A stretch of DNA of 64,000 bases from Artemia franciscana (lineage: Eukaryota; Arthropoda; Branchiopoda; Anostraca; Artemiidae). This document shows, piece by piece, positions 28,001 to 34,000 of this stretch. A model generated the notes under the pieces. That model searched no databases. It saw only the letters and a list, made by a program, of their open reading frames with translations, and was not told the DNA's origin. Position 1 is the first letter of the stretch; every line of letters starts with the position of its first letter. Both the position numbers and the translations under genes were made by a program. The stretch spans positions 11,966,335 to 12,030,334 of the forward strand of contig NC_088868.1 in the NCBI RefSeq assembly GCF_032884065.1, given 5' to 3'.

Positions 28001-31000
28001 TGCTAATTGTTGGGTGAGTGAATATCAATATTTACGTCTCCTTCTTCCATGACTTCTATACTTAAAACTTGGGTTTTATCAAGGTCGCTCCCAGGATTTC
28101 ACCCATATTTTAAGCATAGGCCAATTCTTTTTTATTTAAATAGAATTAAAAGTTTTCTATTTGACGGAAAATTTTAGGAACGAATTTGGAGCGAAAATTG
28201 GTTTCACCCAGAAAAATGGTTTCAAATCCCCACTTCGAGTTTCTACATGAATAGAAATTATATCCTGCTTTAACCTTGTGAATAACCTTACTTAATCTCC
28301 CCTGACGATAAAACCATCTATATCTAAATCAGTAGTTCAATATATTTATTCTTCTGTACACATAATTTCAAAAAAAAAAAAAACTATGGCAGGAATAATT
28401 GAACATACGCCACAAGTCTCGGTAATTAAATGCCTATCAGCTACTTGGGGAGATAACACATAAAACAGGAAATATCTTTTACTGATTACATGATTTGAAT
28501 GATTATGTAGATGAATTTTGGCCTTCACATGTAACTTTGCTGGTACATCCCTATTCTTTTTCATCCATTTTTAACGCTATCTATCTTTTCTGAAATTAGT
28601 CTTGTTAACGTCAGATATTATTGAAATTTTACGAGAAGCGTCTAGGAATAGACTATTTTGAATTATCAGAATTGTCCGGAATTTGTCAGATCGATTTTAT
28701 GATGAAATGAAAGTTTTCCTATTTTTAAAGAGTAACAACTGGTAATTAAAAGTTTATTAAAAGGATTTCATTTGTAATTCATCTGATACATCGCCATCAA
28801 TTCAGTTATCAAATTGACTCGTATAAATTTGCTGAATCGAAGCAAACCTTTCCTCAGCTTAAATTTTCTGCGCTTGCAAATTAATAAAAAAAAAATGCTT
28901 CTTTCCAAGTTAGATTACTAAAATCCTTCAAATTAATTAAATTGCCTTATACGAAAAACGAGCGACAGTCTTTTTTTGACTGCATGTAAAATGTAATTTC
29001 ATTATCCGCTCACAAAACGATGTTTATTTGTATGCCTATATATATATATGTATATATATATATATATATATATATATATATTATATATATATATATATAT
29101 ATATATATATATATATATATATATATATATATATATATATATATATATATATGTATATATATATGTATATATATATATATATATATATATATATATATAT
29201 ATATATATATATATATATATATATATATATATATATATATATATATATATATATATAATATATATATATATATACACATATATATATATATATATATATA
29301 TATATATATATATATATATATATATATATATATATATATATATATATATATATATATATATATATATATATATATATATATATATATATATATATATATA
29401 TATATATATATGAAAAGAGAAATCACCAATGCTACAGTACAAACACAAAAAAAAAAAAAAAAAAAAAAAAAAAAAAAAAAAAAAAAAAAAAAAAAAAAAA
29501 AAAAAAAAAGAGACAGAAGGAGAAAAGGAAGACTGTTTTCCTAAATTAGTGATTAATATAGACCAGCACTTGAATGAGGCCTTAACCCTACTCATCCATA
29601 CAATCACATAGGTCAAACAGCATAGCCACACACAATCAACCATAAAGAATAATCCATGGACAGGCAGTCATGTCGTCAATAAGTATAAGTCGTCATTTAC
29701 CGAACAATAGAAAAAATAATATAGACAAATAATTCAGAGGCAACACCCAACATAAGGGCTCATCAGGAGAATACACTGGCCTATATAGGGTTTCGCCACT
29801 CTAAATTCTCTACCCAGCACAGTGTTGTGGCTACCACAGAATATCCATGGCATCCCCGCGTCAGGTATCACCCCCAAAATACATGCCTATGAAAAAAAAA
29901 AAAACAGCAAATGTAAAACAACCAAGTAAAACCAAAACAAGCTTATCTTGTTAATATATCCCTCCCTTTAGCAACAATAGGTAAACTAAATATTATAAAT
30001 TTTACCAAATCACAAATATTAACACATTGCAAAAAACCTGAATGAACTAAACAATTATAGAATTCATCTTTACCATGTGGCTAATTTTTAAAAAAAATCC
30101 GCTCAATTAGAAACACAATTCAAAATAAATGGCGCTGTGACAACATTTCTCGAACCTCCGAAATTAGTTAAAAATTTCTTTAAGTATTTCTAGATAATTC
30201 TTTTGATATTTATTTAAAAGTTCGTTATAATGAAAACTAAATTTTTTAAATTGCCAAGTTAATTTATTTGCAGAAAAACCTCTTGATATCAATTTTTGGC
30301 TTAAGATTTTACATCTATTTTTAAAATCAATATAATTACTACAAATCCTTGCATAACGAAGTAACTGTGAGAAAAACGCTGAATATGTGATATTTGAGTG
30401 TATATTACTTTCAGGGAATGGGAAACTAATCACTTCAAAATCAAAATCATCCGTTTTATTATACATTTTAAAACTTAATTTATTATTATCACAAATATTA
30501 ATATTTAAATCTAAGAAATGATCTTCATGACCAGCGCCATGACTAGGCTCAAGAATAAGCTCTGATGGATATATATTTTTAGAAATATCAATGAAATCCT
30601 TACAATTTAAGACCAAAATATCATCTAAATATCTTTTATTATTTGACAAAGCATGTTTGAAATTAATTGGATTATTCTTATCCATCATATATTTATATTC
30701 TAGTTGACTTAAAAACAAGTCAGCTATAAATGGGCTGGCATTCCCCCCCATGGGAATTCCCATAATTTGCTTGTACAAATCACCCCCAAATCTTATATAA
30801 GTATTGTATAAAACAAATTCCAATAACTCAAAAATCATATCCAAGCTGTAACATCTCAAGTTAACTGTAGTATTAAAGCAGTTTGTCCATATGGCTTTAT
30901 TATTATAACTGTCTATTTTTAAGAACCTTTTACTAGATAAGAGGAAAGATTTCTTTATAACAGTTTTTAAATTATCAAACACTAAATTAAGTGATAAATT

Positions 31001-34000
31001 AGTATACATTGTCGCAAAATCGAAAGACTCAATTCTTTTAGCTGAAACCATTGTTAAAGAATCTATCACCTGCAGTGAATTATTAACACTCCAATATGGA
31101 TTAAAATTCGAAAATTTTTTAATACCAGAACAATAGGTTTTAAGTTTATTTACAATTTCCTTTAAAATTAAAGAGAGGTCAGTAGCAACAATGCGGGTTG
31201 GACATTTAGCTGCTCCAGCAATAAACCGTGGTTTAGGGGGATTCTTATGAAATTTTACAGTCCAATATAGGAAAGGGAACTTTTTATCATTGTCATTTAT
31301 TTTAATATTAAAATTTTTAAAAAGTATTTCTTCAGTCTTTTCAATTAAATTCTCATCCTCTATATTTACCTTTTCATAAACATTAGTTGTGCATAACTCC
31401 CTTTTTAAGATATCACAATACAGCTTCTGACAAATTATGGCAAAATTATTATTAGCTTTATCCACTGGCACAATTACAAATTCATTCTTTAGATTAGCAA
31501 TTGCTTGTTTAATCTTCGCATTATAAAATAATGATTTAGTGTTACTATTTTTTAAGTTAGAATATATTTTATTTCTTACTCTACTAATAATTAAATTCTT
31601 CCAACTTTGAAAACTCTCTTTATTTTTATTCTCTTTCTTACACCACTTATCAATAAATAAATCAAAATCATTTTCCAAGCCATCAAGAACACTCGATGGT
31701 TTCAGATGATGAGAAAGACGGAAATTAGCCCCTTTATTCATTATAATTTGGAGATCATCTTGCTTTATTATTGACAAGTCCCCTGTTATAACATGTTTGT
31801 AAGTAGGATTTACAAATGGGCCAAGTTGCTTACAATTACAAACCGGTTCCCAATTTATATCGCTATCTAGTTTTTTTAGTATTAAATTATAATTAAAAAT
31901 AATTTGCCCAATAGTTTTTGAAAATTTATAAGTTAAAACTGGACTATCATTATAATTTAAATTACTAGGAAGGGCATGTTTCACATGCCGCTGATTTAAA
32001 ATTTCTGGTAAATTAATATCTTCAATCTGCTTACAAGTAAAATTAATAGGTAAATATAATCTGTTATCCTTATTACTAATCTTATCGAACTTTTTCTTTT
32101 TTGAAATAAATTTCGTTTTAGTTAGAATACAAATTGTATCACATATTACTTTAAAATTATAATCAAGAGCTGTATTATTCTTAACAATCCAGAAAAGTTT
32201 GATTAAATTCCTCTTGGATAAATTATTTAGACACTTTATTACAGAAATCATACCCCTAGATTCAAGTAGCTGGCATAGATCTATAGAAAGCATATGTACA
32301 TCTAATTCATTTTTTCTATTATTTTTCCTATGTCCTCTCGATTGTTTTTTACGTTTAGTAGGACAAGTAAAAGAAGGATGGTCCATAAAACCATCAATAC
32401 ATTTAACAACAACATGAGACATGTCACCATATTTTGCTACACGATCATTTAGCCCAAAAGGATAAGCTGTACCAAGAGTATGGATCCAGAAATCCTCCTG
32501 TTTACGTAGTCTATTATTCTTCTCTTCTTTATTTAAATTTTCTAATTCTAAATTTTCTAAAATTGTGACAGTTATATCTGATATGGAACATTTACCATTA
32601 CTACAATGTTGAACTAAATAGTTATTAGTTTTTTCATTATTAACTGTTGTCTTGTGTCCAGAAAATCTTTTATATATATTATTAGTTGTTTCCACCACAT
32701 ATTGTAGGCAGCATTTATTACATTCTAATAGGTAAATTACATTGGTTGTTCTACAATTAACATTACCACGTAACTTGCATGCAAAATTTTTATTATACAA
32801 TGTACTTTTAACAGAAGTCCGTGGGACAAAATGATCTTGGCAAAGAAAACAACGACTTTTACACTTACTAACTTTCAAAAAATCGTTCCGAGTTCCGAGG
32901 CTAATATTTGTGTTTTGTTGCATAAAAAGTTATTGAAAATAAATCCAAAACAAACCAACATCCAAATCAAAATCCAACAATCATAGTCCAAAAAACATGC
33001 CAAGGTCAATAGGTCAATAAATACATAAACAAAAAGATGAAAGAACATGAAATTTGCATAAGTGCCATCTCACCAATAATTAACAATATCAGGTTGAAAA
33101 CCTGGACCAGGGTAAATGCCAAACAGCATAAAGAAGCTTTTGGAGACGGAGAGAAGGGGGAGGGGAGTTAGCTTCTTCGTCTCCTTGGGTTGAAGAGATT
33201 TCTTTTAGTGAGATGTCTGAATTTGATTTGTAATATGTTTGACTTGACGACCCAAAGAAAGAGTACAGATAATCTGACTAAAACCCAAAGAAACGAGCAT
33301 AATATATTTTACGTAGAATACAACGTATACGCCGTGTAATACTAATAATAAAATCCTTGTTCAACTGCCATGTATATATATATATATATATATATATATA
33401 TATATATATATATATATATATATATATATATATATATATATATATGTATATATATATATATATATATATATATATATATATATATATATATATATATATA
33501 TATATATATATGTGTATATATATATATATATATGTATATTATATATTATATTTATATTTATATTATATATTTATTTGACTTATTTGCTTACTTTATATTT
33601 GCTGAATCGAAGCAAACGTTTCCTTAGCTTAAATTTTTTGCGCTAGCAAACTAATGAAAAAGTGCTTCTTTCCAAGTTAGATTACTAAAATCGTTTGAAT
33701 TAGTAAAGCGCCTGTACAAAAAATTAGCAACAGTCTTTTATTAACTACAGATAGAATCTAATTTCATTACCCGCTCACAAAACGATGTCTATTTGCGCAT
33801 ATGAGAAAGCTGTTTATTTATAGAATTCGAGATACAGTTTATCATATCCTCTACTGTTTTATCCTATAAAGGATGATCAAATGGGTGAACATACAATATT
33901 TTTTTCTTTTGTTAATTGCTATGTTAAGGCCTGCCTAGTTGCCTCTTAGATATAGCCTCTTAGAGAGCTCTAAATACTTACCTCTTCACATACTTACTAG

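Follow-up and report, generated by a model that had tools for sequence, protein, structure and literature searches.

A young, high-copy family of probable Naiad-type Penelope-like retrotransposons in Artemia franciscana, with near-identical tandem units and a host-derived leader

A 64,000-nucleotide stretch of the Artemia franciscana genome (NCBI RefSeq assembly GCF_032884065.1, contig NC_088868.1, positions 11,966,335 to 12,030,334; C6:11966335-12030334 in our contig numbering and hereafter the window) carries on its minus strand a retroelement with a single open reading frame (ORF) of 919 codons. We read this element as a young, high-copy, Naiad-type Penelope-like retrotransposon that would insert at AT-rich targets by target-primed reverse transcription, whose tandem units would be made from one template at insertion, and whose copy in the window would have brought a host leader with it by 5′ transduction. 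To this combined reading we assign a probability of about 0.8. The genome searched for relatives comprises 6468 contigs and 1,270,528,402 bases.

The frame runs open from 32923 to 30164 on the minus strand; plus-strand frame 1 across the same interval holds 72 stops. The GC content of the DNA around it is about 27%, and an open frame of 919 codons in such DNA can hardly be an accident. It also recurs stop-free in 47 of 50 scored genome matches, the window copy included. The encoded protein begins with a Cys cluster from residue 21 (Cys-rich 21-31) and a GIY-YIG nuclease domain at about residues 62-137 (32513-32740, minus strand), in which we assign C68, C71, H90 and H106 as CCHH-type residues. 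A CNC motif of the CxC kind (residues 362-364; 31832-31840, minus strand) lies in the linker between nuclease and reverse transcriptase (RT), and the RT core occupies about residues 480-830 (30434-31486, minus strand), with VDKAN at 487, PRFIAG at 565, FDF at 634, GIPMGGN at 722 and YLDD at 765. The initial annotation had proposed a permuted-domain Penelope-like element at 30164-32923 with the nuclease before the RT; it had the coordinates and the order right while giving no strand, and its position for GIPMGGN holds, with FDF and YLDD to be moved from 635 and 767 to 634 and 765.

Family libraries see these domains weakly: on the window protein, Pfam GIY-YIG gave an E value of 0.043, under the Pfam cut-off, Pfam RT gave no match, and the NCBIfam group II RT model gave 4.5e-5 with 22.7 bits against a cut-off of 300. 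The RT is better identified by comparison with that of a canonical Penelope-like element of the same genome, to which it is 24% identical over 324 amino acids (E 5e-10). For the nuclease, the Pfam match is weak alone and residues 1-180 found no significant blastp match in the canonical element L044 (best E 1.8); membership among Penelope-like elements here draws on a motif alignment with an in-genome canonical nuclease, YIG columns included. A PDB sequence search with the window protein gave a retron-type RT as its best match (E 0.79); with profile A1 the best match was again a retron-type RT (E 0.06), accompanied by another RT and an unrelated protein. Scans of viral contigs found no relative. 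The AlphaFold model of A1 had a predicted local distance difference test score (pLDDT) of 28.9 and is useless.

Naiad elements encode the nuclease before the RT in one ORF, with a CxC motif in the linker; their nuclease has a CCHH motif that is not known from Chlamys, and their RT has an insertion in the fingers domain. They are not known to carry a canonical hammerhead ribozyme, are biased toward insertion in microsatellites, and show tandem organisation with pseudo-long terminal repeats (pseudo-LTRs). This clade of Penelope-like elements with an N-terminal GIY-YIG nuclease was reportedly described by Craig, Yushenova, Rodriguez and Arkhipova in 2021 in Mol Biol Evol, in a survey that may include crustaceans. 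The window element has the nuclease before the RT in one ORF, the CNC linker and the CCHH-type residues as we assign them. The domain order, the linker, these residues and the RT homology together support its earlier description as a permuted-domain element of this type. At the level of the family, the microsatellite bias and the tandem organisation described below likewise correspond to Naiad.

The family is young, abundant and recently multiplying. A protein search of the genome returned 7210 first-look candidates, and the 50 scored among them, window included, were all 98-100% identical. Six ORF copies, on C1, C9, C13, C15 and C4795 (twice), are identical over 2760 aligned columns; each has a single extra base close to its end, which the comparison excluded along with all bases inserted relative to the window. 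Identity of copies across contigs indicates that the family moved very recently. Thirty of the 50 listed genome places were read (8 loci, and 22 places in 20 stretches) together with L009, leaving 20 unread. Over 31 sampled frames we counted 37 nonsynonymous to 32 synonymous private changes, against 3.38:1 expected without selection, a ratio that points to constraint in the coding sequence, with a count biased toward few amino-acid changes by the choice of loci as best protein matches. The same choice weighs against our picture of the family more generally, as intact young copies are over-represented among the best matches to the window protein. Ten exact genome matches had GIPMGGN codings other than that of the young family (reversed control 0), six of them differing by eye in several codons, and the sole one read, L050, is a diverged relative reduced to a decayed fragment (107 and 41 amino acids at 59 and 66% identity). 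A passage of the genome report gives 64.73% transposable elements for A. franciscana, with a strong recent peak (PMC11492255). A 99% identical copy of the element was also found on a 3.7-kb contig (L009; JAGXLU010000084.1) of a metagenome-assembled genome labelled Halanaerobiales, from a sample marked GSL, which we read as Great Salt Lake; its presence in a bacterial bin is probably eukaryotic contamination.

Tandem copies define the family unit as 3748 nt, with the ATG at unit position 258. As DNA the unit ends in ...CATGATAT, and this end abuts either a following unit or target DNA. The exact 3′ end followed by an (AT)n run has 2048 matches in the genome (reversed pattern control 0), and within the sampled loci, read by eye, an AT run of at least 10 nt follows 14 of 19 complete 3′ ends, the other five leading into short AT-rich sequence. 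In the window, the element 3′ end is joined to a (TA)n array at 29037-29411, the presumed target microsatellite, and lies near a T run of 63 nt on the minus strand (29447-29509, an A run on the plus strand); in other sampled copies this run measures 8-113 nt. A second insertion of the family in the window, on the plus strand at 58438-58554, is strongly 5′-truncated, keeping roughly the final 112 nt of the unit, and is joined to an (AT)n array at 58554-58684. Such 3′ junctions are the trace expected if target-primed reverse transcription takes place at (AT)n. The element protein would nick AT-rich DNA, mostly (AT)n microsatellites, and the 3′ end of the element RNA (CATGATAT as DNA) would pair with the TA-rich primer, where reverse transcription would begin. 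Speaking against so simple a scheme, the 5′ flanks are mostly other than TA repeats.

The 5′ ends tell more about how the units are made. Exact 5′ starts number 363 in the genome, against 2048 exact 3′ ends with (AT)n, and thus most copies with that 3′ end are without an exact 5′ start. An exact unit 3′ end directly precedes 299 of the 363. Among 42 exact 5′ starts in the fetched loci, 32 are preceded by a unit 3′ end, 10 by another unit leader and none by host DNA. Solitary full-length ends are thus at most a minority. The median difference is 0.01% between units within one locus (26 pairs, 13 of them with no difference over 395-3426 nt) and 0.86% between units of different loci (1273 pairs), and in 22 of the 26 within-locus pairs no unit from another locus is closer. 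The comparison dropped aligned pieces below 200 nt, units with fewer than 150 mapped sites, pairs with fewer than 200 shared sites, sites beyond 3640, and L001 (the window itself), and the mapping of unit ends dropped pieces below 60 nt. T-run lengths also match between neighbours, with a mean difference of 8.6 in 21 pairs against 28.8 after permutation and none of 20000 permutations as small; these pairs were picked by hand, and two tracts were taken where a locus had three. If tandems were propagated ready-made, their upstream and downstream units would have kept long-standing differences; as the main route this was rejected on the greater likeness within loci than between them. The tandem units at a locus therefore appear, as far as their sequences tell, to have been remade from a single template at insertion, and the tandems agree best with a single reverse-transcription event whose RNA template was circular or was copied repeatedly. 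On this model reverse transcription would often pass more than one unit length of the same template, giving near-identical head-to-tail units, and would leave the most upstream unit 5′-truncated.

Several observations weigh against a single-template origin. Units from other loci are closer in 4 of the 26 within-locus pairs (L002, L017, L021 and L028), and only 12 of the 26 have no other-locus unit as close. The largest within-locus differences reach 0.62% (L011) and 2.74% (L028), the within-locus pairs are not independent of one another, and assembly or polishing could exaggerate the likeness of neighbouring units. Furthermore, 64 of the 363 5′ starts are without an exact upstream 3′ end, and those in L011 come after another leader. 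A competitor, which we regard as the less probable account while giving it real weight, is that tandems arose when a locus's own transcript later re-inserted beside itself, or by unequal crossing-over. It likewise predicts near-identical neighbours and exact junctions. Re-insertion, however, requires solitary complete units to exist first, and none of the 42 exact 5′ starts in the loci is solitary and at most 64 of 363 are genome-wide; in addition, where the 5′ end of a tandem lies within the loci, the point at which its most upstream unit is cut short varies, as would be the case for one truncated cDNA. We therefore retain synthesis from one template as the better account. Two places on C1 (31383425-31383905 and 31452120-31452526) show triplets of unit starts 161-234 bp apart, each start following a unit 3′ end, and are compact, probably non-autonomous tandem derivatives.

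The beginning of the unit may bear on the form of the template. A 110-nt stretch of L020 that includes about the first 100 nt of the unit folds far better than its shuffles (z -4.06, 0 of 200). L011 has ten consecutive leaders. Nine are additional copies of the unit's initial 104 nt, arranged head to tail at 6007-6942 and followed downstream by a full unit, and it is possible that this array came from copying of a small circular or reused leader RNA. More specifically, the template of Naiad insertion might be a circular or end-joined unit RNA that undergoes target-primed reverse transcription in rolling-circle fashion, and the initial ~100 nt of the unit might hold a structured RNA of a kind not yet described, possibly a self-cleaving ribozyme, that helps to produce this template. 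If true, this would account for the exact junctions, the near-identical neighbours with similar T runs, the small number of solitary full-length ends and the 104-nt leader array of L011; we consider the proposal improbable as it stands. Canonical Penelope-like elements have minimal hammerheads in their pseudo-LTRs, of unclear role according to a passage of PMC7761336. Rfam matched nothing in the window at gathering scores and no hammerhead in four loci at E<=5, where only two mir-297 matches to TA repeats appeared. An exact CUGANGA-to-GAAA hammerhead core is absent from both strands of the unit; cores with one mismatch, which were not judged, occur twice in the sense and six times in the antisense strand. 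The 15 distinct unit leaders resemble one another too closely for covariation to be tested.

The window copy itself is solitary and 5′-truncated: its body (29410-33116, minus strand) covers unit positions 65-3746 of 3748, and positions 1-64 are missing. Its 5′ end is joined to a leader of 256 bp (33117-33372, minus strand), upstream of which lies another (TA)n array (33373-33574). Elsewhere in the genome the leader matches a single place, C19:22766614-22766868, which is 98% identical and part of continuous host DNA, and the end that corresponds to the element join lies there about 5 nt from a (TA)n array. As its sole other match is in host DNA, the leader was rejected as a part of the element. 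The simplest reading of these sequences is that it was acquired by 5′ transduction from an element in the C19 (TA)n array. A read-through transcript of such an element, absent from the assembly and presumably carried by another haplotype, would have been copied into the (TA)n array of the window, and the window copy would be the product of a shorter event, ending 64 nt short of the unit's 5′ end. Two points weigh against the transduction. At C19 no element is joined to the leader match, although the 3.3-kb locus holds two other 3′ fragments of the family, and the leader differs from C19 at 6 of 257 sites (2.3%) against 9 private changes in the 2760 positions of the ORF (0.33%), so that the transfer may be older or the C19 allele may have diverged. 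That the leader was instead gained when reverse transcription switched template to a host RNA in the course of insertion is unlikely in our view, yet it remains the main competitor at this point. By eye the leader/element join shows a 2-nt overlap, the 2.3% divergence is no better explained by transduction, and a part of PMC3846280 describes Penelope elements of Adineta vaga that captured host DNA. For the end of a random host RNA, however, a join about 5 nt from (TA)n, the preferred site of the family, would be a coincidence, and 5′ transduction keeps the advantage. The leader and C19 then offer a candidate donor/target pair for 5′ transduction.

That a frame is open does not prove that the copy works. 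Against the column majority of 30 sampled frames, the window frame departs at 14 places; 9 of these differences are private, and one of the private ones falls at the YIG glycine: residue 77 is Val in the window copy and Gly in 30 of 30 other sampled frames, and it aligns with the YIG glycine of the in-genome canonical nuclease. Mutants Y17A and G19A of a canonical Penelope-like element showed no DNA cleavage in the portion of PMC11167929 that describes them, and from its numbering we take G19 to be the YIG glycine. Taken together, the private Val77 and the inactivity of these mutants indicate that the nuclease activity of the window copy has probably been lost despite its open frame. That this copy is still fully active is very improbable: its frame is open and close to the family, but Val77 is private to it and the comparable canonical mutants do not cleave in the same portion of PMC11167929. 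The earlier suggestion that a stop-free frame implies recent or ongoing activity thus stands for the family, on its 98-100% identity, and is not supported for the window copy, which has Val77 and is missing 64 nt.

The assignment to Naiad was made from the clade description given above, and the comparison of the window element with that description rather than with a named Naiad sequence counts against its certainty. The agreement covers the N-terminal nuclease, the CxC linker, the CCHH-type residues, the tandem or pseudo-LTR organisation, microsatellite targets (2048 exact 3′ ends with (AT)n; 14 of 19 ends), the absence of a recognised hammerhead and a high copy number in an invertebrate. The likeness of tandem units within a locus and the captured host leader are observed here in addition. 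Some Naiads of spiders and clams are selenoproteins; unlike those, the window frame needs no stop readthrough. Canonical Penelope-type elements of the same genome (L044-L048) have homologous RT and GIY-YIG domains in the opposite order, RT first (RVT_1 at 399-570 and GIY-YIG at 740-804 by Pfam, run on L044 only), and the spacing from motif A to motif B is 67 residues in the canonical RT and 88 in the window RT. This difference of +21 is one of length only, of the kind that an insertion in the fingers domain would produce. A separate permuted clade of Penelope-like elements other than Naiad is most unlikely, for although this insertion is known by its length and Naiad was set by description and not by an aligned reference, the CNC linker, the CCHH-type residues, the microsatellite targets and the lack of a recognised hammerhead all fit Naiad. 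Naiad and Chlamys are both listed among Penelope-like categories in a passage of PMC10941475. As described in a part of PMC3846280, Pen1, Pen2 and Pen3a of Adineta vaga resemble the Artemia family in having partial tandems with a 5′-truncated unit and in capturing host DNA; unlike it, they are canonical elements, and the host DNA that they captured sits either between the pseudo-LTRs or, as a spacer, ahead of the 3′ pseudo-LTR, whereas the window copy has a 5′ leader from beside a microsatellite.

The kind of element is thus already known, with the Artemia family as a new member, and the useful observations are the likeness of tandem units within a locus and how few full-length ends are solitary. 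No report of Penelope-like elements of Artemia was among the literature matches listed, with many journals outside the coverage. To our knowledge, the formation of the tandem pseudo-LTR structures of Penelope-like elements is unsettled. With a young family present in thousands of copies and a genome assembled to chromosome level, their origin can be tested by counting, and here same-locus units look like products of one template.

The placement of the element in a host intron, as initially annotated, is unproven. Two exon matches of the aldehyde-oxidase/xanthine dehydrogenase type (molybdopterin-binding, PF02738) lie on the plus strand at 811-1050 (E 4e-14) and 2512-2856 (E 4e-5, below cut-off); they cover neighbouring parts of PF02738 about 26 kb from the element, and a motif scan of the window recognised no later oxidase exon. 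Outside the TA arrays, two direct repeats that are 84% identical flank the element on the plus strand, R1 at 28824-29030 and R2 at 33594-33795. The TA arrays with R1 and R2 were considered as pseudo-LTRs of the element and rejected, as other loci match only inside those repeats; R1 and R2 were sought in the window and in the loci then at hand. Farther along the plus strand, a two-ORF long interspersed nuclear element occupies 36906-40483, with ORF1 of 368 amino acids (weak zinc-knuckle match) and a nuclease/RT ORF2 of 824 amino acids, both open. The window also contains a tandem array at 24987-26888 (298-bp period, 6.5 copies) and a direct duplication of about 2.25 kb, 96% identical, at 53686-55909 and 61150-63392.

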